From contig JACMQI010000022.1 in the NCBI GenBank assembly GCA_014377045.1, positions 1 through 32,418 of the forward strand: a stretch of DNA of 32,418 bases, written 5' to 3'. Of this stretch, positions 7,142-32,159 are shown piece by piece. The stretch is from a candidate division SR1 bacterium. GTDB lineage: Bacteria; Patescibacteriota; JACMRA01. Both the position numbers and the translations under genes were made by a program. The number at the start of each line of letters is the position of its first letter. Position 1 is the first letter of the stretch. The notes beneath the pieces were generated by a model. That model was given only the letters and a program-made list of their open reading frames with translations. It was not told the DNA's origin and searched no databases.

Positions 7142-7150
7142 TCATAAAAC

Positions 7151-7225: not shown

Positions 7226-7226
7226 T

Positions 7227-7304: not shown

Positions 7305-7317
7305 TCAAAATTATTTC

Positions 7318-7345: not shown

Positions 7346-7365
7346 TATGAAAGCACAAGTTTAAC

Positions 7366-7439
7366 GGGCCCTTATGCTAGCGGTAAACTTCCTCCTTTGC
7401 ACGGAGGAGTGGAGGGTTCAATTCCCTCAGGGTCCACCA
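7366..7439 (+). tRNA. tRNA-Ala (anticodon TGC)
   Basis: Acceptor GGGCCCT/AGGGTCC contains G3-U70, the alanine identity pair, followed by A and an encoded CCA. Anticodon stem CCTCC/GGAGG holds TTTGCAC, anticodon TGC. The T-arm has TTCAATT. The D-stem is poorly paired (TGCT against AACT, only two of four pairs), unlike the usual GCTC/GAGC. All other arms are good, so I treat it as real. Confidence 0.92.
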
Positions 7440-7453
7440 AAATAAATCTTATT

Positions 7454-7476
7454 TCCCACTTGGGAGTATTTTTTTT
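7454..7476 (+). terminator. Terminator of tRNA-Ala
   Basis: TCCC-ACTT-GGGA (7454-7465) is followed by GTA and eight Ts. It sits 15 bp after the tRNA and separates it from the sortase-like gene. Confidence 0.7.
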
Positions 7477-7483
7477 GCATTAT

Positions 7484-7512
7484 TTGACTAACTACGTAAA
7501 TTTTTACATGAT
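7484..7512 (+). promoter_or_regulatory. Promoter of the sortase-like gene, decides its start
   Basis: TTGACT (7484-7489) and CATGAT (7507-7512) are exactly 17 bp apart. The -10 overlaps the in-frame ATG at 7508, so translation should begin at the ATG at 7523, with a leader of a few bases. Confidence 0.55.
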
Positions 7513-7522
7513 CATGACATAT

Positions 7523-8428: not shown

Positions 8429-8542
8429 ATTACCAAGTTTATAAAATCATTTATTACTAGTATTTTTTAATTTTAAATTATATAAATTTATTAGATTAGT
8501 GTATATTAAACTATATTCACAATTCAGATTACTAATACTAAC

Positions 8543-9577
8543 CTAATTAAGTTTTCTATTTAAATCAACTTTTCCTTTTTGATATTCTAATATGCTTTGA
8601 GCAGACTTTAAACAAAAATCTTTAAACTCTTGTAAATTTATACATTTTTTTTCCGAGTTTACGATTTTTTGTAGGGCATCATTTATATCTTTTGGAACTG
8701 TTTCGTCAAAACTAAAATCTTCATACACTAATTTTTCATTATTATTATAATCTCTACTCCAAGTATCCCATAAATATCTAAAATTTTTGGACTCAAAAAG
8801 TATGTTTTGATCTAGCTGATCTTTTTTATCTTTATATTCATAAAAATTAACCATTGCTTCAATTTTGCTAGTAGGGCTCATATTTTTTTCATAGGCATTT
8901 ATTGTTTGAGCAAGTATACTAAATATATGATGTTCAAATGTAAATATTTCAATATACCTTTTTAATTCTTCTTGATAAAACTGTTTATACAATTTACTTT
9001 TATTTTGTTCAGGTAAATATTTTATGTTCAACTTTCTAACTTCGACTTCGTTTATTTCAGATTGAGTTTTATTAAAATTATTAAATACCCTTTCATCATA
9101 AGTTTTAGTTTCATTTTCATTATTTAATTCACTTAACTTTAAATAAAGTCTATGAATTTGAGTATCCATAAAAGTTGCAGTTTTAAGCATTTGGTCTTTA
9201 CTAGAAAAATAAAAATCAACTAATGGTATTGATAAGTTATATTCTAGAGAACGTCCATCATGAATATCGTCTATTACGTAGCTTTTATCTTCTTCTACAT
9301 GAGCACTGAGGTGGTATATTAATTTAGGGGTGTTGATTGAGTTTGAAGGATTTATTTTATTATTTGGTTCTTGTTTATATTTATCGTAGTAATCAGTTAT
9401 CGATTTTTGTCTCTTTACTATTAGATCAACTGGTATTTTATTTTTACCCTTTACTATTTTCTTATAATCTTGATTCTTTAGAAGTCCTCCAAAAGATGAT
9501 TCTTTTTGATCTTTAAGTCCCTTGCCAGTAACTTCTCGATGAAGTGATTTTTTAAGACTAGAAAAGATGTTTTTCAT
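8543..9577 (-). CDS. Hypothetical protein, 344 aa, helical and charged
   Basis: A soluble, Lys/Asn/Glu-rich protein starting MKNIFSSLKKSLHREV, with no signal peptide or clear membrane segment and no family I recognise. The middle (about 140-290) is predicted by eye to be long helices. The frame is open further upstream, but a promoter (TTGTAA, 17 bp, TATACT at 9587-9592) lies inside that extension, so the ATG at 9577 is the better start. It stands alone, convergent with the sortase-like gene and divergent from the P-type ATPase operon. Confidence 0.7.
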   Translation of the reverse strand: MKNIFSSLKKSLHREVTGKGLKDQKESSFGGLLKNQDYKKIVKGKNKIPVDLIVKRQKSITDYYDKYKQEPNNKINPSNSINTPKLIYHLSAHVEEDKSYVIDDIHDGRSLEYNLSIPLVDFYFSSKDQMLKTATFMDTQIHRLYLKLSELNNENETKTYDERVFNNFNKTQSEINEVEVRKLNIKYLPEQNKSKLYKQFYQEELKRYIEIFTFEHHIFSILAQTINAYEKNMSPTSKIEAMVNFYEYKDKKDQLDQNILFESKNFRYLWDTWSRDYNNNEKLVYEDFSFDETVPKDINDALQKIVNSEKKCINLQEFKDFCLKSAQSILEYQKGKVDLNRKLN

Positions 9578-9901: not shown

Positions 9902-12301
9902 ATGCTATATCCAGGATTAAACCAAAAAAATATCCAAGAAAGTTTGCAAAAATTTGGTTCTAATGTTGTACGGTCAAAATCAGATTCTTCTTTTACAATA
10001 TTCACAAGACAGTTATTAAACCCGCTCGTGTATTTACTTATACTAAGTGGAATTATTAGTTTTGTTCTAAAAGATTACTTGGAAAGTTTAGTTATTTTTA
10101 TTATTTTATTTATTAATACCTCTATCGGCTTTTCTCAAGAATATAAATCAAAAAAGTTATTAGCAAAAATTAGTTCTTACATATCATCAAAAGCAGAGGT
10201 TGTACGTGATTCAAAGCGTCAAAAAATAAATAAGTCTGAATTGGTTATAGGTGATATAGTATTACTTAAGTTGGGAGATGTTGTACCTGCAGATTGTGTG
10301 CTTTTAAAAGCCGAAGATATACGAGTCAATGAAAGTATTCTAACAGGTGAAAGTGAGATTATTTATAAAAGTGTTTTAGTTTTATTAGCTGAATCAAATG
10401 ATTCTGAACATTTACTCTATTCTGGTAGTTTTATATCTCATGGCTCAGGTATAGCACGCGTCATAGCTATTGGTAATAACACCAAATTTGGAACAATCAG
10501 TCACTTAGCACTAAATACTAAAAAACCTAGCCAATTTGAAAAAAATTCTGAAAGCTTGAGTAAAAGTTTTAGTTTGGTAGGTATAGTTTTTTTATTTATT
10601 ATCGTTGGACTACAACTATATATTAAGCCAGATGCAATAAATCACTGGGCACAATTAGCTATATTTACGATTACTCTTATGGTTTCACTAATTCCCGAAG
10701 AGTTACCGATTATTACCAGTCTTACGTTAGCTCAAAAATCTTACAAACTAGGGAAAAGTGGCTTGATTATTCGACATCTAACGGCCCTGGAAGACTTAGG
10801 AAATATAGATATTCTTTGTACGGATAAAACTGGAACACTTACAATGAATAAACAAAAAGTAATAAATTATACTTTTGAACATGATGAAGCTTTCTCCCAA
10901 ATCTGGCTTTTATCGATAGAAAGTGCTGACGATATTGATATTGCTGTTCATGAATGGCTCGATGACAATAAAAAATTGAAAAAACCAAAATTAACCATTG
11001 ATGATTATACAGATATACCTTTTGATCCGAAAGTACGATTATCAGGAAGAATTTTGCAAGGTTTTACTGTTTACAAAGGCTCAACAGAATCTATTCTTGA
11101 CCTGTGTTCGGTCACTAACAAAAAACGTGAGACTATACTTAGTGAAGTGCACTTAAAATCGCGTAATGGTTTGAGAGCCATATCTTATGCAAGCAGTAAT
11201 TCTGTAAACGGAAAAAAGATATACTTGGGTACTGTATTTTTAGCTGATGAAATAAAAGATGACGCTGATGATGTAGTTAGGGCGTGTAAAAAAAATGGGG
11301 TTACACTAAAAATATTAACTGGTGATAGCTTAGAGGTAGCTATTTACGTTGCGCAGCAAGCTGGGCTAATCGAAAATACAAGTGAGTGCGTAGATGTTTC
11401 CACATTACCTTTTGATGATGAAGATTTACTTGAGCATATTATAAAATCTAAAAAAGTTTTTGCTCGTACAAGACCAGAAGACAAGTATAAAATCATTCAG
11501 ATTCTTCAAAAAAATCATGTAGTTGGATACCTAGGAGATGGTATAAATGATGCACCAGCACTTGCATTAGCTCAGGTTGGTATTGTAGTAGATACGGCTT
11601 CAGATATTGCCAAATCTACTGCAGATATAATCCTTCTTAAACCCGAGCTTAGCACGATAATTTATGGTATTAGAGAAGGAAGAGCTGTATTTGAAAATAT
11701 ACAGAAATACCTCAAATTTACCCTGATTGGCAATTTTGGCAATGCATTTACGATCGGATTAATTTCATTACTACTACCTTATCAGCCTATTTTAGCAATT
11801 CAGGTTTTGATAGTTAATTTACTTACTGATTTGCCAATGTTATCTATTTCAGGAGATAGTGTTGAATTGAGTGAGCTAAGATCGCCTAAAAAACAAGAAA
11901 TTCATAAATTGCTGTTTTTTTGTATTTTTCTAGGTCTTTTCTCAACTATATTTGATTTTGTATTTATAGGATTGCATCAATCATTACCTCCAGGTCAAGT
12001 TCAAACATCGTGGTTTTTCTTTAGTGTTTGCACTGAACTACTACTTATATTTTCTATAAGATCACGTAAAAATATTTTTAGATCTGTCAAGCCCAAAAGA
12101 ATATTAGTAGGTCTAGCATTATTTACTTTCACTGTTACAGTTTGGCTAACATTATTTGGTTTTAGATATTTAGAAATTACAGTTTTATCGTTAAAACAAA
12201 TTCCATCTATAATTATACTCGCTTTACTTTATTTGCTAGCTAGTGAAATGGCAAAACTAATTTTTTATAAATATATCGACCTAAAAATAGACTATGATTA
12301 A
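9902..12301 (+). CDS. Cation-transporting P-type ATPase
   Basis: A 799-aa membrane pump that couples ATP hydrolysis to cation transport. Domain order: a cation-ATPase N-terminal domain (GLNQKNIQESLQKFGSN), two helices, the actuator with LTGES (about 146-150), two helices with the ion-site motif IPEELPI (about 264-270), the phosphorylation motif DKTGTLT (D308), the nucleotide domain, the hinge GDGINDAPA, and C-terminal membrane helices. No N-terminal heavy-metal domain and no CPC motif, so it is not a P1B copper/zinc pump; PEELP resembles the P2/P3 group (Ca, Mg or H), but the ion is uncertain. The C-terminus overlaps the topoisomerase gene by 8 bp, implying translational coupling. No Shine-Dalgarno site. 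Confidence 0.93.
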   Translation: MLYPGLNQKNIQESLQKFGSNVVRSKSDSSFTIFTRQLLNPLVYLLILSGIISFVLKDYLESLVIFIILFINTSIGFSQEYKSKKLLAKISSYISSKAEVVRDSKRQKINKSELVIGDIVLLKLGDVVPADCVLLKAEDIRVNESILTGESEIIYKSVLVLLAESNDSEHLLYSGSFISHGSGIARVIAIGNNTKFGTISHLALNTKKPSQFEKNSESLSKSFSLVGIVFLFIIVGLQLYIKPDAINHWAQLAIFTITLMVSLIPEELPIITSLTLAQKSYKLGKSGLIIRHLTALEDLGNIDILCTDKTGTLTMNKQKVINYTFEHDEAFSQIWLLSIESADDIDIAVHEWLDDNKKLKKPKLTIDDYTDIPFDPKVRLSGRILQGFTVYKGSTESILDLCSVTNKKRETILSEVHLKSRNGLRAISYASSNSVNGKKIYLGTVFLADEIKDDADDVVRACKKNGVTLKILTGDSLEVAIYVAQQAGLIENTSECVDVSTLPFDDEDLLEHIIKSKKVFARTRPEDKYKIIQILQKNHVVGYLGDGINDAPALALAQVGIVVDTASDIAKSTADIILLKPELSTIIYGIREGRAVFENIQKYLKFTLIGNFGNAFTIGLISLLLPYQPILAIQVLIVNLLTDLPMLSISGDSVELSELRSPKKQEIHKLLFFCIFLGLFSTIFDFVFIGLHQSLPPGQVQTSWFFFSVCTELLLIFSIRSRKNIFRSVKPKRILVGLALFTFTVTVWLTLFGFRYLEITVLSLKQIPSIIILALLYLLASEMAKLIFYKYIDLKIDYD

Positions 12302-13328
12302 ATCTGAAGTAAGTGCTAGTGAAGCTGGGCTTATATATATAAGTGACTTAAATTTGGGAATTACTCGCAAACTTAAAAATAATGTTTTTCACTATTGTAA
12401 CTCAAATGGTAAAAAAATCAACGATAGTAAAATACTAAGTAGAATTAAATCTCTTGGCATACCGCCTGCGTATAGAGATGTTTGGATATGTCCTGAAGAA
12501 AATGGTCATATACAGGCCATAGGTTATGATATAAAAGGTAGGAAACAATATAGATATCACCCAAAATGGAGGTCATTTAGATCAATGATGAACCACAAAA
12601 AAATGATTGAATTTGGTTTAGTTTTACCTGAAATACGGAGTAAAGTACTTTTAGATTTAGCAGGGGAAGGACTGAAGAAAGAAAAAATATTGGCAAGTAT
12701 AGTTCGTTTGATTGATATAACTTTGATTAGGGTTGGAAACGATGAATATGCACGTGAAAATGATAGTTATGGAGTCACTACTCTTCGAAAACATCATATT
12801 AAACTTTTGAGTGAGATTTCTTTCGAAATAGAATTTAAAGGTAAAAGCCATAAATTTCATCATATTATAGTTCGAGATAAGAGGGTAACTCGCATCATTA
12901 TTGAAGCCTTGCATGTACCCGGCTATGAATTATTCAAGTATTTAGATAGTGATGATCGACTTCATAAAGTCGATAGTGATGATGTAAATAATTATATCCG
13001 AAGCATTAGTGGGGGAGACTTCACAGCGAAAGATTTTCGAACATGGTGGGGTACTGTGTTTACTTTGATGGCACTTCAAAAAGTCCAAGTAGATTTTGAT
13101 CGTCCGCTAAAAGTAAAGTGCGAATTAACCAAAGTTCTTAAATTTGTCTCAGATCAGTTAGGAAATACACCATCAGTCTGTCGCAAATTTTATATATATC
13201 CAGGCTTGATCGATGCCTATTTGGAAGGAGAGCTAAGTAAAATTATACAGGAATTCAGTTTAGATAAGAGTTATCCTAAACTTTCAAAAGAAGAGCAGCT
13301 AGCTTTTTGGTTTTTTAAACGAGTTTAA
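12294..13328 (+). CDS. DNA topoisomerase IB
   Basis: A 344-aa enzyme of the poxvirus-like bacterial type IB class, which relaxes supercoils through a 3'-phosphotyrosine link and needs no ATP. An N-terminal domain (about 1-90, IPPAYRDVWICP and AIGYDIKGRKQYRYHP) precedes the catalytic domain. The active-site residues are visible: Arg in LIRVGNDEYA, Lys in TTLRKHH, Arg in AKDFRTWWGT, and the nucleophilic Tyr in GNTPSVCRKFYIYP. Its start lies inside the end of the ATPase gene (8-bp overlap), so it depends on that operon. A hairpin follows at 13361. Confidence 0.95.
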   Translation: MIKSEVSASEAGLIYISDLNLGITRKLKNNVFHYCNSNGKKINDSKILSRIKSLGIPPAYRDVWICPEENGHIQAIGYDIKGRKQYRYHPKWRSFRSMMNHKKMIEFGLVLPEIRSKVLLDLAGEGLKKEKILASIVRLIDITLIRVGNDEYARENDSYGVTTLRKHHIKLLSEISFEIEFKGKSHKFHHIIVRDKRVTRIIIEALHVPGYELFKYLDSDDRLHKVDSDDVNNYIRSISGGDFTAKDFRTWWGTVFTLMALQKVQVDFDRPLKVKCELTKVLKFVSDQLGNTPSVCRKFYIYPGLIDAYLEGELSKIIQEFSLDKSYPKLSKEEQLAFWFFKRV

Positions 13329-14919: not shown

Positions 14920-16386
14920 ATGTTCACTCGTATTATAATATTTTTGTCACTAATTGTGATTATATTAGGTATTTGGTTTACACTTCCAGGGATAAATATT
15001 GCTTCAAAGAAATCCACTTTGCAATTTACAACTATTGCAAACAAAGATACAAATCTTGAATCGTATCAAAAAAAAACTAGAAAGCGTACATACGATCAGA
15101 CTCCAAGTTTAACAACTCTTTCGATTTTACCTTCTACACAAAAACAAATCAACAATTTTGTTGAAGACTCTAATTTTGACCTTGCTAATCTTTCAGAGGA
15201 AAATAAGAATATATATAACACTGAAGCAAAGTTTGTCGATACAAAAACGCTAAAAAAAGAGGCCACTTTTAAAAACTTAAATGAAATTAAAAATCAAGTT
15301 GATCGTGAGAATCAAATACCACAGATTGCTTATAAAGCTCCTTTTTTAACTCTAGCTACTAACTCAACATCTAATGATCTTACAAAAACATTTTCTTTAG
15401 AAAATACAATTGATTTAAATGGATTTTTATTTTCAAGTATCGAAAACAATACCAAGGCTGTAAAAATTGATCAATCTTTTACCGTCACTTTTAAAATAGT
15501 ACCAGATAAGAGAATTATCGATAGTTTGCGATTCTACCCCGAAGTCTCCTTTACCAAATCTTTGAATGGTAATGTTTTGACCGTATCTCCTACTAAAATG
15601 GTTGCCAAAACAAATTATATTTTTGGAATTGCAACTATTGAAGTGTGTAAATTGAGCTTGCCGAGTAACTGTCGCCAAAATTCAAACTGGTCTTATTCAT
15701 TATCGTTTGAGACTGATTATAAGCAAACTTTGATATATGGTAAAAGCGAGGAAGGTAGGGACCTAGTAGTGAATATTTATGGTTCTTGCACCCAGATTAG
15801 TACTTGTAAAAAAATTATGCTTACTGCTGGTATTCATGGTAGTGAGTGGCAAAGCGGAGATCTTGCTCAGTTGCAAACTTATATCGAACAAAACCCACAA
15901 GAAATTATAGATAAAAATAAAGTGATTATCATAGTGCCACTAGCTAATCCTGATGGGACAGCTTCTAGTAATCGATATAATGCTCGTAATATCAATCTAA
16001 ATAGAAATTTTACTTCTAATTTTGTAACATGTGACGAATGCGGTGCATTTGCTGAATCTGAAAAGGAAACAAAGTATTTAGCAACCTTTATATTGCAACA
16101 ACAACCAAGTGTTCTAATTAGCTATCATTCTCAGTGGCCGCCAAATGGAATAATTTTTAGAGGAAACGATTATAATTTAGATACTATAAAGTTTGCTGAG
16201 TGGGTTTCACAAAGAACAGGGTATGCTGTTGGTGTCTTCCCTGACATTCCTTCGGTTCCAGGAGATCAAACTGTCTGGGCAGAAAGTAAAGGAATAAGAA
16301 GTTTAATCATTGAATCAAGTTCGCTTAGCGCTACTGACTGGGACAAAAACTTTAATTTATATCTATCATTAATTAGGGACTACTAA
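14920..16386 (+). CDS. Membrane-anchored M14 zinc carboxypeptidase
   Basis: A 488-aa protein. An N-terminal helix (about 3-22) anchors or exports it, followed by a low-complexity linker, an Ig-like SbsA/Big_5-type domain (about 160-265, ending in WSYSLSFETD), and a C-terminal M14 domain. Zinc ligands are visible as HGSE (H306, E309) and SYHSQ (H403); RNINLNRNF holds the substrate Arg, and the catalytic Glu is in LIIESS (about E465). M14 enzymes of this type often trim peptidoglycan peptides, which fits the two deacetylases nearby. Substrate is inferred. It is divergent from msrB. Confidence 0.88.
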   Translation: MFTRIIIFLSLIVIILGIWFTLPGINIASKKSTLQFTTIANKDTNLESYQKKTRKRTYDQTPSLTTLSILPSTQKQINNFVEDSNFDLANLSEENKNIYNTEAKFVDTKTLKKEATFKNLNEIKNQVDRENQIPQIAYKAPFLTLATNSTSNDLTKTFSLENTIDLNGFLFSSIENNTKAVKIDQSFTVTFKIVPDKRIIDSLRFYPEVSFTKSLNGNVLTVSPTKMVAKTNYIFGIATIEVCKLSLPSNCRQNSNWSYSLSFETDYKQTLIYGKSEEGRDLVVNIYGSCTQISTCKKIMLTAGIHGSEWQSGDLAQLQTYIEQNPQEIIDKNKVIIIVPLANPDGTASSNRYNARNINLNRNFTSNFVTCDECGAFAESEKETKYLATFILQQQPSVLISYHSQWPPNGIIFRGNDYNLDTIKFAEWVSQRTGYAVGVFPDIPSVPGDQTVWAESKGIRSLIIESSSLSATDWDKNFNLYLSLIRDY

Positions 16387-16605
16387 TATAAACTTAGAGA
16401 AAAGTATTATAAAATTTGATTAAATAGAATATAAAAATTATCTTTTTTAAAACTCTATTGACACAAATTTGAAATATATCCAAGGATTAGTTCTGTTTAG
16501 ATTTATTGATTTGCTTTGTATCATTAGGACTCTTTTCACCAAGATAACTACAATGCAACGATTAAAATTTAAACAATTTCCTAATTTCCTAAATTTTCTT
16601 GTTTT

Positions 16606-17877
16606 ATGGTGTATATAAAAGCTTTTTCTAGGCCAAATATTTTTTTTATAATTTCTTTTTTACTCATTGCTTCTTTTTCCAGTGTTTCAACAAATGTAAG
16701 CGCTTCAAATAATCTCATATCCAATCCGTCTGCTGAATCTGGATCGCCGACTGATTGGTCAAAAAATGGCTGGGGAACAAATCAACCAGAATATACGCTC
16801 GAGAATGATGCTCAAGATGGTTCAAAAAGTCTTAAAGTCACAGTGAATAACTATACAAATGGCGATGCTAGGTGGTCTTTCAAAGATGTGACAGTTACAC
16901 CTAATACACAATATAAGTTTTCTGCGTATTATAAATCCAGTGTTCCAATTGAAGTCGATATGGACTCTACCTTTACAACAGGTATACACGACTACTCTTG
17001 GCTAGGGGATTTACCAACATCCCCCGATAATTGGACGCAAGTTTCCTATACATTTACTACTTCTAATGATTCAAAAGCTATAAATATTTATTTTCCAATT
17101 TTTAGTAAAGGATGGGTACAAACTGACAATTATTCTCTAGTTTCTGATAGTGTAGTACCCCCTCCAACTCCACTACCCCCTCCAACTCCAGTCTCAGACG
17201 GTTTTAAACGTCCTTTAATTAGTATTGATTTTGACGATGGGTGGAAAAATGCGTACAAAAGTGGATTCCCAGTTCTTGACGAGTTTGGTTTTAAAGGTTC
17301 TGCAATGATAGTTACCGACACCACACAAAATCCCGATAGATATAACAATCTTTACATGAATTCTACAGAGGTTGTAAATTTAAGCAATCGAGGTCATAAA
17401 ATAGGTTCTCATTCGGCAACTCATGTAAATTTAGTAGGATTAAATGATGGTCAATTACAAAGCGAGGTTGTTAATCCTAAAATCTATTTAGAAAGCTTAC
17501 TTGGTCAGCCTATAAACTATTTTGTAACTCCATTTTGCGAGCATAATGCAGAAGTAACTGACTATGTAAGACAGCACTATACTATAGGTATGCGAAACTG
17601 TGATAGTAATGTAAATATAAAGTCCAGTTTTGACCAATATAATGTAAATGCTTTCCCAATACTTAATACGACTACTCTTGCTGAGCTACAAAAGACAATT
17701 AGTTCTATTAAACAAAATAACGGATGGCTAGTGCTTATGTATCATGAAGTAAAACCAGGAAATGAGGCATATTCTATTACGCAGGCTAATTTTAGAGCTC
17801 AAATGCAAGCTATAAAAGATAGCGGTGTTGTAGTTGTACCAAGCGAAGATGCAATCATAGAAATTAATGGTCAATAA
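16606..17877 (+). CDS. Secreted polysaccharide deacetylase with carbohydrate-binding-like domain
   Basis: A 423-aa exported protein. A signal peptide (about 1-34, ending VSAS) leads to a jelly-roll domain resembling CBM4/9 (about 35-180, NLISNPSAESG...WSKNGWG), a Pro-rich linker (PPPTPLPPPTP), and a NodB deacetylase domain. The metal site is visible as DFDDG (D210, D211) and HSATH (H269, H273); VTPFC and LMYHEV match later NodB motifs. It probably removes acetyl groups from a cell-surface or host glycan. The upstream 219 bp hold a TTGACA (16458) but no good -10. It is followed by a clear terminator. Confidence 0.9.
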   Translation: MVYIKAFSRPNIFFIISFLLIASFSSVSTNVSASNNLISNPSAESGSPTDWSKNGWGTNQPEYTLENDAQDGSKSLKVTVNNYTNGDARWSFKDVTVTPNTQYKFSAYYKSSVPIEVDMDSTFTTGIHDYSWLGDLPTSPDNWTQVSYTFTTSNDSKAINIYFPIFSKGWVQTDNYSLVSDSVVPPPTPLPPPTPVSDGFKRPLISIDFDDGWKNAYKSGFPVLDEFGFKGSAMIVTDTTQNPDRYNNLYMNSTEVVNLSNRGHKIGSHSATHVNLVGLNDGQLQSEVVNPKIYLESLLGQPINYFVTPFCEHNAEVTDYVRQHYTIGMRNCDSNVNIKSSFDQYNVNAFPILNTTTLAELQKTISSIKQNNGWLVLMYHEVKPGNEAYSITQANFRAQMQAIKDSGVVVVPSEDAIIEINGQ

Positions 17878-21154: not shown

Positions 21155-22780
21155 TTAGTTTTCTAAGACAACCTTAACTCTTTTAGAAATTTCATCTTTT
21201 GATAAAATAGAAAGTAGCTCAAACGGACTTGGAGACTTTTGTTTTCCTGAAAGAGCTACACGAAGTGGCCAAAGATAGGATCCTGTATCTTTTTGATTTG
21301 CCATAAGCCATGCTTTCATTGTTGTTTCTAGATTTGATGTATTTTCAATATGATTTTCTATTGACTTCGAAGATATAAAGCTAAGCAACCCATCGTTATT
21401 TAACAACCAGTCACTTATTTCTTTTAGGTTTTGTTTTGATTCTTCAATGGATATTTTTTTCCACTTTATCTCATCATTTGTTGGTTTACTCCATTTTAAT
21501 ATACAATCGCTATCGCTTCCAAACTCAGAAGTTGTAGTTACTCGATTTTTATCTAGAATTAAAGCTAATTGAGTAGTTACATCTTCAATATTAACAAGGC
21601 CTAATTTGACTTTGCCTATTTCAAACCATTCTTTGTCGGAAATTAATTTTATATATTCTCTATTAAACCAATTAAGCTTTTCCAAGTTGAAACGAGCAGG
21701 TGATTTAGAAAGTTTTTCGTAATTAAATTCGAGTGAAATATTGTGTATTAACTTGGCTAGACGCTGGTCTTGGTTTAGGTTTTCAAAATCGTACTTTTCA
21801 AGGTATATTTCTTTTTCTGTTCCTGGATTCCATCCTAAAAATGCTAGATAATTGATAATTGCTTCTGGCATATATCCTTTGTCCAAATAATCTTGCATAT
21901 TTACGTTACCATCACGCTTACTCATTTTTTTATTGCCAGTTTCGCCAAGTATAAAAGGTAGGTGAATATATTGCGGACAATTATGAACCCAGTCAGTAAC
22001 TTCAGAGGAAAGTATTCCGTGTTCAAAGCAATCTAAAAACATAGTTTTGTGTTTTGGAAAACTGGGATACCATTCTTGTGATCGAACAACCAATGTTGTT
22101 TTCATTAGATAATCATCTACGATATGTGCTAAATGATATAGTGGATATCCATCAGGCCTTAGTATAACAAAATCTTCCTCAAGTGATAAGTCAAATATAG
22201 TACTGTCTACTAATAAATCATGACAAGCTACCTTCAAATTTCTATGTAGTTTGTACATCAACGCTGGTTTATTTGGATCTTTTAACGCATTTTTGACTGA
22301 TTTGTAAAGATCGTCAGGGATATATTTTTCTACACAAATTTTATAATAGTCGATTGGTCGCTTAATTGATTTTTTAATTTCTTGTAATTCTTGTTTTTCC
22401 TCAGGAGTAAGATATGACCAATATGCTAAACCTTTGTCTATCATGAGTTGAGCATATTCATGATAGTGCTCGAGTCTCTCTGATTGAATATATGGACCTA
22501 AATCTCCGTTTTGATAGATACCATAAAAATCGTTTTTTTTACCATGCTTATTTAAACTAACACCTTCGTCTGGATCCAGTCCAAGCGTATGAAGATTACC
22601 AATAAGATTAATTGCAGCTTCAGGATTAAGTCTATTTCGATCTGTATCTTCAAGTCTTAAATAATATATACCGTCTTCGTATTTAGTTGCAAATAATTTG
22701 GTGAAAAGTATAGTTCTGGCTGTACCAAGATGGAGATACCCTGTAGGGCTAGGAGCTGAACGAGTACGGAAGCTAGACAT
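21155..22780 (-). CDS. gltX: Glutamyl-tRNA synthetase
   Basis: A 541-aa class I synthetase that charges tRNA-Glu. The nucleotide motifs are SAPSPTGYLHLGTART (HIGH-type signature) near the N-terminus and KMSKRDG (KMSKS) in the middle; EDTDRNR and the YHLAHIVDDYLM region are typical GluRS. With tRNA-Gln and GatA/GatC here and no GlnRS visible, it is probably non-discriminating and also makes Glu-tRNA(Gln). The start is the ATG at 22780, six bases after a TATCAT -10 box; the TTG codon before it lies in the promoter. Confidence 0.95.
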   Translation of the reverse strand: MSSFRTRSAPSPTGYLHLGTARTILFTKLFATKYEDGIYYLRLEDTDRNRLNPEAAINLIGNLHTLGLDPDEGVSLNKHGKKNDFYGIYQNGDLGPYIQSERLEHYHEYAQLMIDKGLAYWSYLTPEEKQELQEIKKSIKRPIDYYKICVEKYIPDDLYKSVKNALKDPNKPALMYKLHRNLKVACHDLLVDSTIFDLSLEEDFVILRPDGYPLYHLAHIVDDYLMKTTLVVRSQEWYPSFPKHKTMFLDCFEHGILSSEVTDWVHNCPQYIHLPFILGETGNKKMSKRDGNVNMQDYLDKGYMPEAIINYLAFLGWNPGTEKEIYLEKYDFENLNQDQRLAKLIHNISLEFNYEKLSKSPARFNLEKLNWFNREYIKLISDKEWFEIGKVKLGLVNIEDVTTQLALILDKNRVTTTSEFGSDSDCILKWSKPTNDEIKWKKISIEESKQNLKEISDWLLNNDGLLSFISSKSIENHIENTSNLETTMKAWLMANQKDTGSYLWPLRVALSGKQKSPSPFELLSILSKDEISKRVKVVLEN

Positions 22781-22786
22781 CAAAAT

Positions 22787-23375: not shown

Positions 23376-24410
23376 TTATATTCCTACAAAAAAACCTCTT
23401 AATTCTGGAGTTTGCTGTCCTCCAACAGTAGATCTTGGCAATTCAAATAGTATTGTGTCTGGCTTAAGGGGTGTTACGCTACCTTTTGTGGTAAATCCAA
23501 ATTTGTAACCATTTTTTTTAGTTAGTTCCATGGTTTTTGGATTATAGTTTCCATAAGGATATACGACACTATCAATTTGAATACCTAACTTTTTTTGTAA
23601 AAATTCTTTAGATTCTTTGAGTTCATAATCTGCTTGGCCAGCAGTAAGTCCTCCAGGATAAGTGAACTCTGGGCATGGCTTAAGCTCGTTACCAGTTAGG
23701 TTGTCCAAATAAATATTTTGTCCATTTTTTCTTTCTCTTTGTGCTAGTTGACAGTGAAGAGTAGTGTGTGACATGATACCCATGCCAGCTTTTTGCATTG
23801 TAATTACGTTATCAAGTGACATATACTCACGTGTAGAAAGTACGTCCGTTATAATAGCAAAATTACCAATTAAGCCGTATTTTTTAAGTATTGGAAATGC
23901 ATTTTCATAAGCGTCTGTATAGCCATCATCTATAGTTAAAAGGATTGGGTTTTTAGGCATTGGTTTATCTCCAACCGTTATGCGCTCGTATTCTTCAATA
24001 GAAAGAGTGGTATAGCCTTTATCTTTGAGTTTTTTCATCTGTGCATCAAATGCATCTGGACTTACTCGAAGACCTGTAGCAATGCTATCGTTTTTTAGAT
24101 CATCGGGAAGTGTAGCTATATGATGATAAGTTAGTGCGGGGATATCTAGTTGAAATTTATTAGGATCTGTATTTACTAATTTAATTGGTTCAGGTTTATC
24201 AGATTTTACTTTCTCAGGTTTTTTATCTAGCATTTTCGTTGATTTTGGAGATTCGCCTTTATCACTATTCTGTGCTTGAAGTGATGGTTGATTAAATAAG
24301 TCTTTATTATTCGGTCCTATATTTTTGAAAAAAAAGTAACTTCCAGTCAAAATAGTAACAAAAATAAGAATAGAAATAAGATAGATAAGAAGGTTGTTTT
24401 TTACTTTCAT
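23376..24410 (-). CDS. Membrane-anchored polysaccharide deacetylase
   Basis: A 344-aa protein. An N-terminal helix (about 7-29) is followed by a Lys/Pro-rich linker and a NodB domain. The metal site is visible as TIDDG (D161, D162) and SHTTLH (H215, H219); YPYGNYN is the third NodB motif. PALTYHHIA before the domain is typical of cell-wall deacetylases of the PgaB/IcaB-like group. It probably deacetylates a wall or surface glycan. The sequence differs enough from the 16606 protein to be a separate branch, not a recent duplicate. It is divergent from the ATP-grasp gene. Confidence 0.9.
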   Translation of the reverse strand: MKVKNNLLIYLISILIFVTILTGSYFFFKNIGPNNKDLFNQPSLQAQNSDKGESPKSTKMLDKKPEKVKSDKPEPIKLVNTDPNKFQLDIPALTYHHIATLPDDLKNDSIATGLRVSPDAFDAQMKKLKDKGYTTLSIEEYERITVGDKPMPKNPILLTIDDGYTDAYENAFPILKKYGLIGNFAIITDVLSTREYMSLDNVITMQKAGMGIMSHTTLHCQLAQRERKNGQNIYLDNLTGNELKPCPEFTYPGGLTAGQADYELKESKEFLQKKLGIQIDSVVYPYGNYNPKTMELTKKNGYKFGFTTKGSVTPLKPDTILFELPRSTVGGQQTPELRGFFVGI

Positions 24411-24576: not shown

Positions 24577-25839
24577 ATGGAAAATAAAATGGTAATTTTT
24601 GTGGGTTCTTTATCAAATAAATATATTGAGGCATTCAAAAAAGAAGGTTATTCCATAGGTTTTTTTAGAGATTTGTACGATACAGCCATAGACAGATTTT
24701 TACCTAATTATTTACATAAACTTAGCTTTGTATACTCTATTAACATGAGAAATAAGGTTACCATAGGAGAATCGCTTAAAAGCTTATATTTCAATTCTAA
24801 AACTCTTTTGGTTTGTGTAAGAGAAAAGCATGTCTATACAACCGCATTAATAGCTAAAAGTCTTAACTTAGATCAGTCAGAGTTTCTTGACGTTAGTCAA
24901 GCTCAATACCTAACAAATAAATATTTTCAAAGAAAAGAAATTGCTAAAATTTATCCTGAAATCACACCTGAATTTAAAAAAATTCGTACGTTTCACGGAG
25001 CTTATACATTTGCCCGCAAGTTTGGATTTCCAGTTGTAGTAAAGCCAGCGAATCTTAGTAAGGGTGAGCTTGTTAATATTTGTAACAATATTGAAGAGCT
25101 AAGTAGAAAAGTCAGTTATGTTTTAGATCATATCCAAGAAGTTTACGACCGAGATAAAGTATACCGTAAACCTCAAGTTGTGATCGAAGAGTTCATTGAT
25201 GGTAGACAGTTTTCAGTAGATTCTTACATTGATGCCGATGGTAAGGTAATACACACACCTATTTGTAAACAAATTATAAGTCATGATTTAGGTTTTGATG
25301 ATTTTCAAACTTACTATTCACAGTATCCTAGCGAACTGGATAGAAGAGAAGAACTACAAGTTCTAGACACGGTAGAGAAGTCGATTAAAGCACTTAAAAT
25401 AGTTTCTTCTACCACTCATACCGAGGTTAAAATAGATACAAAAGGAAGGTGCAAGGTTATCGAAGTAAATATCCGTCCAGGCGGATTTAGAAGTGAAATG
25501 TTGAGAGAAAGCTTTAATATCGACCACTTTGGTAATTTTATTAAGTCTCTTCTAGGCGAACCTATTTTACTTGATAATTCGTTTATTCAATATTCTGCAT
25601 GTCCACAGTTTTGGGCTGATAAGGAAGGTAACTTTGTTGAAATAGAAAATAGAGATCAAATAGAGAAGTTGAAAAGTTTCAACAAGTTTATTATTGTTGT
25701 TAAAAAAGGTGATGAAGTAGGGCAGGTGAATAAAGGTTATGGACGTGTGGCGTATGCTATTTTAGCTAACAAAGACAAGTCTATTTTACAAGGCGATCTG
25801 ATAACGATTCGTAATTTAGTAAAAATTCATGTTCACTAA
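24577..25839 (+). CDS. ATP-grasp ligase (L-amino-acid-ligase or carbamoyl-phosphate-synthase-like)
   Basis: A 420-aa enzyme of the ATP-grasp fold, which joins a carboxylate to an amine through an acyl-phosphate. Domain order: a variable N-terminal domain (1-110), the ATP-binding lobe FGFPVVVKPANLSKG (K156) with VVIEEFIDGRQFSVDSYID (E204-E205), and the metal-binding part THTEVKID (E283) and VIEVNIRPGG (E296, N298). The C-terminal region (about 340-420) resembles the extra lobe of dipeptide ligases such as the BacD group. Substrates cannot be read from the sequence. Its 3' end overlaps the convergent carboxypeptidase gene by 59 bp, and a second ATP-grasp gene lies 2.7 kb downstream. Confidence 0.88.
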   Translation: MENKMVIFVGSLSNKYIEAFKKEGYSIGFFRDLYDTAIDRFLPNYLHKLSFVYSINMRNKVTIGESLKSLYFNSKTLLVCVREKHVYTTALIAKSLNLDQSEFLDVSQAQYLTNKYFQRKEIAKIYPEITPEFKKIRTFHGAYTFARKFGFPVVVKPANLSKGELVNICNNIEELSRKVSYVLDHIQEVYDRDKVYRKPQVVIEEFIDGRQFSVDSYIDADGKVIHTPICKQIISHDLGFDDFQTYYSQYPSELDRREELQVLDTVEKSIKALKIVSSTTHTEVKIDTKGRCKVIEVNIRPGGFRSEMLRESFNIDHFGNFIKSLLGEPILLDNSFIQYSACPQFWADKEGNFVEIENRDQIEKLKSFNKFIIVVKKGDEVGQVNKGYGRVAYAILANKDKSILQGDLITIRNLVKIHVH

Positions 25840-26860
25840 TACCCTCTGATAAAGCTTCTATTTTTTTAGTTATAGGATTTTCTACAAATTTTTTGTATTC
25901 ATTAAATTCTTTATTTTTTAGCGACAAAATATTTAGTTCAATTAGTATCTTAATATGTTCTAAATCAAGCGGGTTAATAGGATATTCCATAATAATACAA
26001 CAAACTTTTGAAAAAGCATGAAATAAAATAGAGTTATCTAGGTTGCTTTGCTCAAAAGAATTAGAAAAATATTGAACTTTTTGGTTTCCTATCAAATAAC
26101 TTAAGCATTTATACTTCTTTTTGTATTCTTTTTGTATTAAAGTATAATACTTATTTTTTATTAAAATACCTGGACTTATTATGTTAAATATTTTAGAAAT
26201 TTGACTATTACTTAAACCTAGTTCTGATAACAACAATAAAATAGGTAGAAAACTAAATCGTGGCTGATTTTCAATTTTTTTTTCATTTACTGTTTCCAAA
26301 ATTTTTGCAAGACCTTCTTCAAATACTAAATAGTTATTGAATTTAGGTAGAGAAGTTAAGGAAAAATAGTTTTTTGATCGATAGACGTGAACAACTATTT
26401 CATGAAACAATATTGATATAAGCTTATCACGTTTTATTTCTCTATCTGCAATATAAATTAGGCATTTTTTATGAATTATTCGATACTTTTTACCTATTTT
26501 AATATTCCATTTAAATTGAAAATCAAGATAGTTGGACATAATTTTTTCAACAATGATGACAACCTCGCTTGCAGAAAATACCAGTTGATTTGGAGTAACA
26601 GCTAGCTCAACGTTTTGCAAAAGACTTGAATATTGATTTTTTATCTTATTTAAAAGAAAGCCATTGGAGTAATATTGGTAATCCGGTTGTAAGTATGGTC
26701 GTATAGCCTCATATATTATGCTATATAGGCTTGGTTCAGATATTATGTTTTTTAAAAACATCGCTATTAGAGGAGCGTTAGCGATAAAACATCTAGTCTC
26801 ATATGATAATTTTTTTAAGCAAATATTTGCCACACTGGTTTTGTCGAAGTGAGTTTGCAT
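25781..26860 (-). CDS. MATCAP/DUF1704-like zinc carboxypeptidase
   Basis: A 359-aa protein with the hallmark FHEIVVHVYRS (H153, E154, H158) and, 22 residues on, FEEGLA (181-185). In the DUF1704/QEGLA family, which includes the tubulin tyrosine carboxypeptidase MATCAP, HExxxH and the following EEGLA supply the zinc site. The N-terminal part (about 1-140) is helical. The rest of the family core (after EEGLA) is only loosely conserved. No signal peptide, so it should act in the cytoplasm. It shares a control region with the divergent transferase genes and its 3' end lies inside an ATP-grasp gene, a layout that suggests a shared pathway. Substrate unknown. Confidence 0.72.
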   Translation of the reverse strand: MQTHFDKTSVANICLKKLSYETRCFIANAPLIAMFLKNIISEPSLYSIIYEAIRPYLQPDYQYYSNGFLLNKIKNQYSSLLQNVELAVTPNQLVFSASEVVIIVEKIMSNYLDFQFKWNIKIGKKYRIIHKKCLIYIADREIKRDKLISILFHEIVVHVYRSKNYFSLTSLPKFNNYLVFEEGLAKILETVNEKKIENQPRFSFLPILLLLSELGLSNSQISKIFNIISPGILIKNKYYTLIQKEYKKKYKCLSYLIGNQKVQYFSNSFEQSNLDNSILFHAFSKVCCIIMEYPINPLDLEHIKILIELNILSLKNKEFNEYKKFVENPITKKIEALSEGISEHEFLLNYESLSDRLVK

Positions 26861-26883
26861 TGTTTTGACGTTTTATGTGTTTG

Positions 26884-26934
26884 ATTATAACCAATTTTGT
26901 TGTATTTGACAAGACCCAAACTGTATGGTAGTAG
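26884..26934. promoter_or_regulatory. Divergent promoters with overlapping -35 boxes
   Basis: On the minus strand TTGTCA (26907-26912), a 17-bp spacer and a perfect TATAAT (26884-26889) serve the carboxypeptidase gene. On the plus strand TTGACA (26906-26911), 17 bp and TAGTAG (26929-26934) serve the transferase operon. The two -35 boxes share five base pairs, so one polymerase should exclude the other. Confidence 0.6.
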
Positions 26935-26976
26935 TGTTTAGAGTTATATTTTTCAAATTTTAATTTATTACTTTAA

Positions 26977-27741
26977 ATGCAATACACTTTATTACATCCT
27001 AAAAAAATTTCATGGCGTGTAGATATTCCTAAAAATGGCAATATTTTAGAACTGTATGGAGATAGAACAAAGAAAGATCTTAATAATAGTTTAGATAGAT
27101 TAAAAATATCTCAATATAAGTTTTGCATTGAAGAAATCACCAAAGATTATTTGGATCAATTTGTACCGTTATATGTCACTAATATTGAGAGTATAAAAGA
27201 GGGTATTATTTATGACATGTACGATATTATCTTGCATAACCCTAAACATCAAGATGGTTATAAGGCTTTGTCACTTTATTTAGGAAGTGAATATTTAGGA
27301 GCTATTTTATTTGTCGTAAGCAAAAGTAACAAACTATATGAAATTGCAAAAGTTTTTCCAAAAACTATATTGACTCCTTTAAAATTAAATATTACTTTTA
27401 TTGCTGAGTATAAACTTTATGAATATGCTGTAAATAACAACATTAAATACATAAGTCTTGGAGTTGATACAAATTATTTTGGTAGAAGAGGAAATATAGG
27501 TTTGGCTATTTATAAACTTCGTACTGGTGCGCAACCATATTGCCCAAAAAAAAATGATAATCTAATATTTGAAAATATAATTTTTAATCATGAAAAAGAC
27601 GATGACATGTTGGTATTTCTTGGTACTTTAGGTAAAAAAATAGAGTTTGCAAAACTTTTTCTCAATTCTAAAACTGAATATTTAGACAAGTATTCTCAGC
27701 TATTGCAAAATAAGAAAGTAAGTGTAGAAATAATTAGATAA
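26977..27741 (+). CDS. GNAT/FemAB-like transferase, copy 1
   Basis: A 254-aa cytoplasmic protein with a GNAT-type C-terminal half: YLGAILFVVSK strand, FIAEYKLYEYAVNNNIKYISLGVDTNYFG (G162-G169), then IGLAIYKLRTGAQP. The GLAxxKxxxGxxP segment matches the C-terminal core of FemAB/BioF2-like enzymes, which transfer amino-acyl or acyl groups, often from aminoacyl-tRNA, to amines. The donor and acceptor are unknown. It is clearly paralogous to the next gene (GVDTNxFG and IGLAxxKLxxGxxP in both) and lies 9 bp before it. It heads a three-gene operon that ends with an ATP-grasp ligase. Confidence 0.7.
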   Translation: MQYTLLHPKKISWRVDIPKNGNILELYGDRTKKDLNNSLDRLKISQYKFCIEEITKDYLDQFVPLYVTNIESIKEGIIYDMYDIILHNPKHQDGYKALSLYLGSEYLGAILFVVSKSNKLYEIAKVFPKTILTPLKLNITFIAEYKLYEYAVNNNIKYISLGVDTNYFGRRGNIGLAIYKLRTGAQPYCPKKNDNLIFENIIFNHEKDDDMLVFLGTLGKKIEFAKLFLNSKTEYLDKYSQLLQNKKVSVEIIR

Positions 27742-27750
27742 AGACTTTAT

Positions 27751-28521
27751 ATGCAGTATCCATCTCATATTTTATGGAAAATCAGTTTTCAAAATTATTC
27801 ATCTGTGGAAGAAATTTTTAGTAAAAAAACTTATAAAAAAATACTCTCATCATATAAAAGAATGTTAGAATTTGGATATGAGTTTGAAATTAAAATAGTT
27901 ACGCCAGATTTTATCAAGATTTTTTTACCATTGTATGAAAATAACATTTTGAAAAAGCGTAATGGCAATGTCCGTGATGTTCTCAAATATTATCAAAATT
28001 ATAAGGATACTGGTATCCCGTTTTATTGCTTAATATTAAATTTTAATGGTGAGCTATGTGGTGCTTTGCTTTTTACAGAGAGAAAAGATAGGCTTAGTGC
28101 TGTAGTAAAATACTTTCCTTCAGAAGCAAAGTGTAAACTACCGTCTAATATAACACTTGTAGTGGAATATCTTTTCTTCAAAGAAGCCTATAAATTGAAG
28201 AAAAAAGGTATTTATCACGGAGTTGACACAAACGTTTTTGGTGTTAATTCAGAAATTGGACTTGCCATGTTTAAGTTACAAATAGGATGTAGACCTCATA
28301 TTTCTAGTGTTGACTCAACATACAGTATCAGTGATAAGTTTATATGGGATGAAAAAGAAGATGTATTGATATTTCACGGTTCTAAACCTAAAGAAAAAAT
28401 TGTATCTTCAACTTTATATATAACAGATAAGCAGCTTTTTAAAAACTCTCAAGATAAATATGGCGCCTTATTAAAATGTTCTGACATTAAAACTCAAATC
28501 AAATATAAAACTGATAATTAA
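27751..28521 (+). CDS. GNAT/FemAB-like transferase, copy 2
   Basis: A 256-aa paralogue of the preceding gene, with the same length and order. Shared marks are the opening (HILWKISF against KISWRVDI), the middle LPLYENN against VPLYVTN, HGVDTNVFG (G157 on) and IGLAMFKLQIGCRP. The two are diverged, so the duplication is old and both have been kept, perhaps with different donors or acceptors. No signal peptide. It lies 9 bp after copy 1 and 7 bp before the ATP-grasp gene, so translation is probably coupled. Confidence 0.7.
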   Translation: MQYPSHILWKISFQNYSSVEEIFSKKTYKKILSSYKRMLEFGYEFEIKIVTPDFIKIFLPLYENNILKKRNGNVRDVLKYYQNYKDTGIPFYCLILNFNGELCGALLFTERKDRLSAVVKYFPSEAKCKLPSNITLVVEYLFFKEAYKLKKKGIYHGVDTNVFGVNSEIGLAMFKLQIGCRPHISSVDSTYSISDKFIWDEKEDVLIFHGSKPKEKIVSSTLYITDKQLFKNSQDKYGALLKCSDIKTQIKYKTDN

Positions 28522-28528
28522 AGAAAAT

Positions 28529-29374
28529 ATGCCAATAAAAGGATATAGTTACCGCCTCGATATTTGGAAATCTATTTGTGACAAGCGTAATTTTAAGTAC
28601 ACTACAAATACAAATATTCCAAGCTATTTAATAATTCATCTTAGTAAAGACTATACTTTTTATGGCCGTAAAGATTCTTTTAATTCACCCATTTCTTCAA
28701 CCCTCACAAAGCATAAGAGCCTAACTTATTCGCTACTGAAAAACTCAGATATTCCTATTCCTAAAAATATTATAATAACAAAAGATGAGCTCAATAAAGA
28801 TTTAGGTGATAAGATAAAAGCGAACCATTTAGACTTTCCCTTAGTGATTAAGCCATCTAACACGGACAACTCCGTTCATGTGTATATCGTAAAAGATTTG
28901 GTAGGTCTTATAGATAAAATACATACAGTTTTTCAAGACAAGAACTATGATATTTTAGAGATTATAATTCAGGAATATATAAATATACAGAAAGAATATC
29001 GGGTACTATTCTTCAACAAAAATATATCACATAATTTATCTAATGACCCTATTATTTTACTTGCATACAACAAGCTTAGGCTCAACCAGCGTAAGAATAG
29101 CGAAAATTATAACATTGCTAATGAGGAAAATGCTCATTATGAGATTGTTGCTTCGAATACATTCCTCAAAAAGTTTAAAGTTATCGTAGATAGGGTAGTG
29201 GAGTGTATTCCTGGTCTAGGGTGGGCAGGCATAGATATAGTTGAAGATATAAATGGAAAATTATGGTTTCTTGAGGTAAATTCTGATCCAGGTTTTAAGC
29301 TTTTACGCAAGTTGCATGGAGATAAAAAAATCGAGGAAATATACAATAAAATGATGGATTACATGATTGGTTAA
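28529..29374 (+). CDS. RimK/D-Ala-D-Ala-ligase-like ATP-grasp ligase
   Basis: A 281-aa ATP-grasp enzyme, shorter than the first. Motifs: LDFPLVIKPSN (K108), IIIQEYINIQKEYRVLFF (E149), WAGIDIVEDINGKLWFLEVNSDPGF (D236, E249, N251). These are the nucleotide and metal residues of the fold. It is closer to RimK-, cyanophycin-synthetase- or tubulin-tyrosine-ligase-like forms than to the BacD-like enzyme at 24577. It joins an amino group to a carboxylate; the substrate may be the product of the two upstream transferases. It is the last gene of the operon; recR follows after 55 bp. Confidence 0.85.
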   Translation: MPIKGYSYRLDIWKSICDKRNFKYTTNTNIPSYLIIHLSKDYTFYGRKDSFNSPISSTLTKHKSLTYSLLKNSDIPIPKNIIITKDELNKDLGDKIKANHLDFPLVIKPSNTDNSVHVYIVKDLVGLIDKIHTVFQDKNYDILEIIIQEYINIQKEYRVLFFNKNISHNLSNDPIILLAYNKLRLNQRKNSENYNIANEENAHYEIVASNTFLKKFKVIVDRVVECIPGLGWAGIDIVEDINGKLWFLEVNSDPGFKLLRKLHGDKKIEEIYNKMMDYMIG

Positions 29375-29429: not shown

Positions 29430-30053
29430 ATGCTACCAAAAGCTATGCAAGATTTATCTGATAAACTCAAGTATTTTCCTGGGGTAGGTACTCGTAGTAG
29501 TCAAAAACTTGCCCTGGATGTTATCCATCTATCACCTGAAAAATATGATGAGCTTATCGAAGCCTTTAGCCAAGCACGAAACAATGTAGGATTTTGTACA
29601 CAGTGCGGCTTTTTTGCACAGAAAAATAAGCTTTGTGAGATTTGTAGCAATGAGTCTCGAAACAAAACTCAGATTTGCCTCGTAGAAAAACCGACGGATG
29701 TAATTAGTATGGAGAAAAGCCAGATATATCGTGGGTATTATCATGTTTTAAATGCTCTTATCTCGCCTCTTGATAATATTTTTGCTGAAAATACCCGTAT
29801 TGGTGAGCTTTTTGAGCATAGGCTGGCTGGTTTAACTAAGCTTGGAGATGTTGAAGTGATTCTCTTTTTTAAAGCTGGGTTTGCTGGAGAAGCGACTACT
29901 GCATACATTAAAGAGCTTATTAAAGATAGAGGTTTAACAGAAAAAATCAAAATTAGTAGGCTTGCGCAAGGTTTACCGATGTACTATAATCCAGACACTT
30001 TAGATCAAGCAACTATGGCTCGAGCATTGGAAGATAGAAGACTGGTTTCATAA
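29430..30053 (+). CDS. recR: Recombination mediator protein RecR
   Basis: A 207-aa RecR, the usual length. It loads RecA at gaps with RecF and RecO. Visible parts are the N-terminal helix-hairpin (KLKYFPGVGTRSSQKLAL), the four-Cys zinc finger (CTQCGFFAQKNKLCEICS), the Toprim start (ICLVEKPTDVISMEKS), YRGYYHVLNALISPLDN, and RLAQGLPMYYN. Usual Toprim residues are partly changed: NPTVEGEAT is KAGFAGEAT, and the GGDLEY stretch is YYNPDT. An AGG three bases before the ATG is too close to be a strong RBS. It is followed by a clear terminator. No dnaX or ybaB neighbour is present. Confidence 0.92.
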   Translation: MLPKAMQDLSDKLKYFPGVGTRSSQKLALDVIHLSPEKYDELIEAFSQARNNVGFCTQCGFFAQKNKLCEICSNESRNKTQICLVEKPTDVISMEKSQIYRGYYHVLNALISPLDNIFAENTRIGELFEHRLAGLTKLGDVEVILFFKAGFAGEATTAYIKELIKDRGLTEKIKISRLAQGLPMYYNPDTLDQATMARALEDRRLVS

Positions 30054-31671: not shown

Positions 31672-31697
31672 ATTATCTTTTGTGTCACTGTAAAGGC

Positions 31698-32159
31698 GTG
31701 ACTACAAGTAAGTACATCCACAAAAGCCACAACGTAACTGTCCTCATGTATCACTTTGTACTTCCAGCAAAGTATCGTAGAGCAGTATTCTCAGAATCAG
31801 TCGATCAGACTCTCAAAGATATTTGTCTGCAAATAGCTTTGAGATACAGCATAGTATTTCTAGAAATTGGGACAGACAAAGATCATGTGCACTTCCTGAT
31901 CCAAAGTGTACCAACCTACAGTCCAACGAAAATTGTACGATTGGTAAAAAGTATCACAGCAAGAAATATTTTTAAACTCAATCCAGAAGTCAAACAACAA
32001 CTCTGGGGAGGGGAGTTTTGGTCAGATGGATATTTTGTAAACACAGTGTCAAAATATGGTGGAGAAAATACGATAGCAAACTATGTAAAAAACCAAGGAA
32101 AAGAAGAAAACAAATATACTAAAATCCACGAACAGCAATTGTCAGAGGAGCTGTTTTAA
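31698..32159 (+). CDS. tnpA: IS200/IS605 family transposase TnpA (Y1, HUH)
   Basis: A 153-aa Y1 transposase. The start is the GTG at 31698, giving VTTSKYIHKSHNVTVLMYH, the usual IS200 N-terminus; the frame is open to a TTG at 31680 that adds only unrelated residues. The HUH motif is HVHFLIQSVP, the catalytic Tyr lies in TIANYVKNQG, and WSDGYFVNTV is the conserved segment before it. It nicks and joins single-stranded IS ends at the subterminal hairpins. The codon use is less AT-rich than the neighbours, as expected for a mobile gene. Confidence 0.92.
   Translation: MTTSKYIHKSHNVTVLMYHFVLPAKYRRAVFSESVDQTLKDICLQIALRYSIVFLEIGTDKDHVHFLIQSVPTYSPTKIVRLVKSITARNIFKLNPEVKQQLWGGEFWSDGYFVNTVSKYGGENTIANYVKNQGKEENKYTKIHEQQLSEELF

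Follow-up and report, generated by a model that had tools for sequence, protein, structure and literature searches.

In eukaryotes, the tails of tubulin are modified by the ATP-grasp enzymes TTL and TTLL, and the human MATCAPs cleave C-terminal Tyr, Glu and added polyGlu, with an HExxxH plus EEG site described for TMCP1/MATCAP (PMC10499314). A comparable pairing is known from bacteria, where polyglutamylation of ribosomal protein S6 by the RimK-RimB (RimABK) system combines a C-terminus-extending ATP-grasp enzyme with a protease, RimB, by which the RimK-added Glu is taken off (PMC11957791). The rlo operon of Pseudomonas consists of a retropepsin (RloA), a 7TM/transglutaminase-like protein (RloB) and an ATP-grasp protein (RloC), and its ligase and protease affect the same processes (PMC12239564). 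Operonic links between ATP-grasp ligases and GNAT proteins are also a known theme (PMC4431377). MATCAP itself was identified as an animal tubulin-tail carboxypeptidase, and the open papers found are silent on the role of its bacterial relatives. Here we describe a locus of five adjacent genes at positions 24577 to 29374 of contig JACMQI010000022.1 (the whole stretch of 32,418 nt is referred to as the window), predicted to encode two ATP-grasp ligases, a divergent MATCAP-family protein and two GNAT-like proteins. The genome that contains it (G000; 1.04 Mb, 42 contigs, 86% complete) belongs to a class that, in the set used, consists of one family with six genomes.

An earlier note on this DNA had proposed that these genes form a peptide-ligation and trimming system. 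The five open reading frames (ORFs) were found adjacent and where that note had placed them, with starts and stops all complete under translation table 11, and its HEIVVH and EEGLA motifs and its pair of paralogous GNAT-like genes were recovered. Both genes that it had read as ATP-grasp ligases passed Pfam cut-offs, as detailed below. Its assignment of the gene at 25781-26860 to DUF1704/MATCAP held when checked by structure prediction, where human MATCAP chains were the only credible matches.

The latter gene lies on the reverse strand and encodes a zinc carboxypeptidase-like protein of 359 aa. As a single sequence, the protein had no match in Pfam, NCBIfam, PHROGs or the PDB, and failed the curated cut-off of PF08014 (MATCAP, formerly DUF1704). 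Since these direct searches were empty, its identity was reached only through intermediates, for which relatives were sought in 116 related genomes. Three separate relatives and one ATP-grasp fusion passed PF08014 (E 4.9e-23 to 1.2e-41; 82-143 bits), while a relative in genome G004 (locus L009) remained under the cut-off (E 4.7e-4). When the window protein and its counterpart in another G004 locus (L008) were aligned by hhalign to four PF08014-matching Patescibacteria MATCAPs, an E value of 2.7e-9 was obtained, and a 15-sequence profile including the window protein matched human MATCAP (7z5g) with an E value of 4.6e-31. Foldseek searches with an AlphaFold2 model (pLDDT 68.9) placed human MATCAP chains at ranks 1-5 with probabilities of 0.90-0.93, the next match having 0.02; the raw E values of the MATCAP matches were only 0.13-0.16, with a TM of about 0.35. 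HEIVVH occupies residues 153-158 and EEGLA residues 181-185, and H153, E154, H158 and E182 are invariant across the 15-sequence alignment. The predicted zinc site, of the kind described for the human enzyme, would thus be formed by H153, H158 and E181 or E182, with E154 as the putative catalytic residue and both HExxxH and EEG intact. In the MATCAP tree, the window copy groups with two G004 copies (96/92) and adjoins a copy linked to RimK and RimB, that of L061 (94/89). Taken together, the profiles and the structure model identify the product of 25781-26860 as a divergent zincin of the MATCAP family. No relative of this protein or of the GNAT-like proteins was found in the viral contigs scanned. 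The second MATCAP paralogue of G004 (L009; contig C17, 469-1947) lies on an 11-kb contig across which no ATP-grasp was found, and rplJ, rplL, rpsB and rplT, as identified by reading, follow several kb from it.

The first ATP-grasp gene (24577-25839, forward strand; 420 aa) gave a Pfam match to ATP-grasp_4 over the cut-off (E 1.9e-20), and its LAL_C2-like C-terminal domain stayed below that of LAL_C2 (E 7e-6; 26.7 bits vs 29.4). A profile of four copies of this family matched the L-amino acid ligase (LAL) BL00235 (3vot, E 2.4e-18) and BacD (E 1.3e-9). Its motif VEVNIRPGG is intact, and copies with 46-53% identity are present in three of the five class relatives. The protein appears nearest to LALs, with which it shares the fold, the ATP-grasp_4 core and the EVNxRxxGG motif, although the similarity is low even at the profile level and its MATCAP context sets it apart. 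The second ATP-grasp gene (28529-29374, forward strand; 281 aa) encodes a Ddl/RimK-like core, which matched Dala_Dala_lig_C over the Pfam cut-off (E 2.5e-12) and RimK with E 3.9e-10; its EVNSDPGF motif is intact. The best PDB match was a D-alanine--D-alanine ligase (Ddl; 5d8d, E 8.6e-7) with an alignment that begins at residue 61, and the canonical N-terminal domain of Ddl is absent. Together with a score of 51.6 bits against the NCBIfam cut-off of 245.65, this led us to reject a full-length Ddl. A canonical RimK was likewise rejected (rimK_fam, 50.4 vs 143.4 bits); canonical RimK was seen beside MATCAP only in other genomes. A match to TTL (E 0.0011) was below the Pfam cut-off. No match to the second ligase was found at 1e-8 in 58 related genomes, and no relatives were found in plasmids.

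To place the locus in context, the neighbourhoods of MATCAP genes were surveyed across the phylum, where the family is present in 29 of 116 genomes. An ATP-grasp gene lay at most two genes from MATCAP, or was fused to it, in 17 of the 21 Patescibacteria families examined. ATP-grasp matches made up 28 of the 105 ORFs close to MATCAP and 11 of the 212 more distant ones (Fisher p 1.9e-7, with related genomes counted at full weight). Six genomes, belonging to four families, encode ATPgrasp_ST-MATCAP fusions. ATPgrasp_ST, 7TM (PF14402) and PF05618 domains are linked or fused to MATCAPs elsewhere in Patescibacteria, and in L010 PF14402 stands beside ATPgrasp_ST, an arrangement also seen in the rlo operon. 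Canonical RimK, a RimB-like PF05618 protein and MATCAP are encoded by adjacent genes in L061 (G034, 4951-7640) and L064 (G013, 5591-8590), and a LAL-type ligase, two RimK-like ligases and MATCAP are found together in the distant genome G051 (L062). The linkage of MATCAP and ATP-grasp is thus recurrent: the pairing of ligase and peptidase proposed in the earlier note is borne out by fusions and by RimK-RimB-MATCAP sets, and is broader than was guessed there. A 2009 study by Iyer and colleagues reportedly described links of ATP-grasp enzymes with peptidases. A combination of DUF1704 with ATP-grasp was not found in the open-licence papers searched, in which the MATCAP-RimK-RimB and MATCAP-ATP-grasp fusion contexts of Patescibacteria appear to be undescribed.

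Within the class, the core arrangement is gltX, LAL-type ATP-grasp, MATCAP, in some cases a second ATP-grasp, and recR. In the window, this slot is flanked on the left by gltX, encoding glutamyl-tRNA synthetase (21155-22783, reverse strand; tRNA-synt_1c, E 3.2e-55), and on the right by recR (29430-30053, forward strand; Toprim_4, E 4e-17), both flanks being the same in L008 and in L073 of genome G001. The order in L008 is gltX, LAL, MATCAP, RimK-like ATP-grasp and recR. LAL and MATCAP face each other there with their 3' ends, and likewise in the window, where these ends overlap by 59 bases. In both L008 and L058, a RimK-like ligase and MATCAP are encoded on one strand by overlapping genes. In L073, the gltX-recR slot holds LAL without MATCAP. 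The gltX gene of L073 (9423-11104) is split across two reading frames, probably by a frameshift or an assembly error.

The MATCAP gene of the window is divergent from the gene for GNAT-fold protein 1 (GNAT1; 26977-27741, forward strand; 254 aa), with 116 bases between them. GNAT1 is followed on the same strand by GNAT2 (27751-28521; 256 aa) and the second ATP-grasp gene, with gaps of 9 and 7 bases. This run is consistent with an operon; promoter and terminator scans gave no more matches than chance, so the operon is proposed from gene spacing alone. GNAT1 and GNAT2 are paralogues with 31% identity and the common motif GVDTNxFG(x4)IGLAxxKLxxGxxP. Neither had a significant Pfam match, and PDB sequence and profile searches were also empty. 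An AlphaFold2 model of GNAT1, built from two sequences, reached a pLDDT of 58.6, and with this low-confidence model Foldseek gave MprF, FemX, Sbb17, LF-transferase and ATE1 as best matches (probability 1.00, E 2e-5 to 1e-3, TMq 0.35-0.47). The structural matches are mostly aminoacyl-tRNA-dependent transferases, with ordinary acetyltransferases (GCN5) ranking not far behind. A sequence link was found to L131, a PF13480-type protein, with the aligned segment LGVST...GLFFFKESFGCKP. Among 20,000 shuffled decoys, a single one outscored L131; it had a strong composition bias that L131 does not have, and the link was retained as weak. A comparison by hhalign with the two ordinary FemAB proteins encoded elsewhere in the same genome failed. 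The earlier note's FemAB-like reading of these genes was not supported; behind it stand the fold likeness of this low-confidence model and the weak link to L131. We consider a Fem/MprF/LF-transferase-like fold a low-confidence prediction, and the assignment of GNAT1 as a probable FemAB/Acetyltransf_6-like transferase one of moderate strength; the two proteins differ from the known FemX, MprF and LF-transferase in being short (about 255 aa) and in having no significant matches to Pfam or to PDB sequences.

No relatives of the GNAT-like proteins were found in other class members, and across 380 genomes of the phylum L131 and one fragment were the only matches; for GNAT2, plasmids and phages were also searched and contained no relatives. 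The pattern GVDTNxFG had 42 matches in viral contigs, which seem to be due to chance, since the surrounding proteins were unrelated. As they were not found in relatives, the two GNAT-like genes and the second ATP-grasp gene, which share a low GC content (0.26-0.31), look like lineage-specific additions. The survey of relatives thus gave a divided answer to the earlier note: LAL and MATCAP are found again at the equivalent position in L008, and the GNAT-like genes and the 28529 gene are not.

We propose that the products of the five genes lengthen and trim a single peptide or protein tail in the cytoplasm, a proposal to which we give about even chances. The LAL-type and the Ddl/RimK-like ATP-grasp ligases would join amino acids through ATP-derived acyl-phosphates. 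Additional aminoacyl groups would probably be attached by GNAT1 and GNAT2, with aminoacyl-tRNA as the most likely donor, in the manner of the Fem, MprF and LF-transferase enzymes. The MATCAP-family protein would hydrolyse C-terminal residues of the ligation product. How long the tail becomes may then depend on how ligation and trimming balance, by analogy with RimK and RimB on S6 or TTLL and MATCAP on tubulin. The sequence itself shows the enzyme families, the intact metal-binding and ATP-grasp motifs and the recurrent linkage of MATCAP with ATP-grasp; we infer the joint action of the five genes, the dependence on aminoacyl-tRNA, the carboxypeptidase activity and the opposition of ligation and trimming.

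Several points weigh against this proposal. Most of the conserved RG-x-TDTS-x-PG-x-FTKD segment is lost in the window MATCAP, and its branch in the tree is long (2.66); given these two features, its specificity may have changed. The papers searched report no activity for any bacterial MATCAP. The earlier note assumed that the five genes were retained as a unit, which the relatives do not support: their clusters have neither the GNAT-like genes nor the 28529 ATP-grasp gene, found only in this genome, and L073 has LAL without MATCAP. Finally, the textbook end on which RimK acts is absent in G000, where S6 and S18 form an in-frame fusion.

This S6-S18 fusion is present in G000 (L141, G000:C23:48980-49258 and downstream), G004 (L140) and G002 (L138) as a single ORF of ~200 aa, the S18 half being assigned by reading the sequence. 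In the RimK-RimB-MATCAP genomes (L061 and L064), S6 is free and has an acidic C-terminal tail. C-terminal polyglutamylation of S6 was accordingly rejected as the function of the locus in this class, since the fusion leaves no free S6 end, and S6 is probably not the substrate because of it.

Compared with the RimK-RimB system, the window locus has no RimB-like gene, its ligases are LAL-type and Ddl-like, and a MATCAP zincin stands in the place of a retropepsin; the likeness lies in the pairing itself, and MATCAP is found beside RimK and RimB in the two genomes named above. The rlo operon resembles the contexts of other Patescibacteria MATCAPs, in which ATPgrasp_ST (RloC-like, by inference), 7TM and PF05618 domains recur, whereas 7TM and PF05618 partners are absent from the window locus and no MATCAP belongs to the operon described in Pseudomonas. 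With the tubulin system, the locus shares a putative ATP-grasp writer, a putative MATCAP eraser and the HExxxH...EEG zinc site, but no tubulin substrate is implied, the TTL match of the second ligase is sub-threshold, and the window MATCAP has lost most of TDTS-PG-F-KD. The pattern suggests that the eukaryotic pairing of writer and eraser has a bacterial parallel, and points to an unstudied bacterial system that adds and removes amino acids. A bolder version is that Patescibacteria carry out reversible C-terminal tagging of a non-S6 tail, written by ATP-grasp ligases (here also by aminoacyl-tRNA-dependent GNATs) and erased by MATCAP; such a system would be the bacterial equivalent of the tubulin tyrosination/glutamylation cycle and perhaps its evolutionary origin. 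We regard this as speculative and rather unlikely. The MATCAP domain of Patescibacteria travels with peptide-forming ATP-grasps, and in two genomes it has RimK and RimB neighbours with a known substrate, which makes the function of bacterial MATCAPs directly testable.

Other functions for the locus were also weighed. The locus may edit cell-wall precursors, with the Ddl-like ATP-grasp and the Fem-like GNATs building the stem or bridge of the UDP-MurNAc-peptide, LAL making a dipeptide block and MATCAP trimming precursors in the cytoplasm. A canonical Ddl, present in three class relatives, was not found in G000 (86% complete), where the best Ddl-like match is the 28529 gene; a polysaccharide deacetylase adjoins the locus, and the GNAT1 model resembles FemX. 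However, that Ddl may simply be missing from an incomplete assembly, the 28529 protein has no Ddl N-terminal domain and scores far under the Ddl cut-off, and the genome has its two ordinary FemAB genes elsewhere. MATCAP is moreover linked in relatives to RimK, RimB and Rlo-like genes, with no linkage to mur genes noticed, and a role in the wall seems to us improbable. A small-peptide metabolite would be made if LAL formed a dipeptide that the other ligase and the aminoacyl-tRNA-dependent transferases extended, MATCAP maturing the product or removing a self-toxic one. LAL/BacD-type ligases, the closest structures, do make dipeptides, the GNAT structural matches include Sbb17/Sba18, aminoacyl-tRNA-dependent peptide synthases acting on streptothrisamine, and the GNAT-like genes and the second ligase are lineage-specific and low in GC. 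Yet we noticed no gene for a transporter, a tailoring enzyme or a precursor in the cluster. In G004, moreover, both LAL and MATCAP sit in the conserved housekeeping position from gltX to recR, which does not resemble the setting of a transferred metabolite cluster, and this pathway seems doubtful as well.

The genes might also be chance neighbours with unrelated roles, LAL having long occupied the gltX-recR slot, into which MATCAP, the GNAT-like genes and the second ATP-grasp gene were inserted separately. The slot of L073, with LAL and no MATCAP, fits such a history, as does the absence of the GNAT-like and second ATP-grasp genes from relatives. It is difficult to reconcile with the close spacing of the GNAT-GNAT-ATP-grasp run, with the strong phylum-wide linkage of MATCAP and ATP-grasp, and with the joint occurrence of LAL, MATCAP and other ATP-grasps in the distant G051, and we consider it very unlikely.

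A recoded genetic code, in which TGA is read as Gly as in some Gracilibacteria, was rejected: in the loci sampled from this and related genomes, some long frames terminate with TGA, and table 11 leaves the genes intact. TGA is thus a stop codon in the class, and the table 11 code applies. The stop codons of the 23 main genes at 1141-30053 of the window are 20 TAA, 3 TAG and 0 TGA, and TGA stops are present elsewhere in the genome. Near recR, an ORF at 31680-32159 encodes an IS200/IS605-type TnpA-like transposase, as identified by reading. Surface-related genes lie near the locus (7397-8428, 14920-17877 and 23376-24410), namely a sortase-like gene and an M14-like carboxypeptidase gene, both identified by reading, and two polysaccharide deacetylase genes. 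At 9902-13328, a P-type ATPase gene and a type IB topoisomerase-like gene share an overlap of 8 bases, the families being again assigned by reading.

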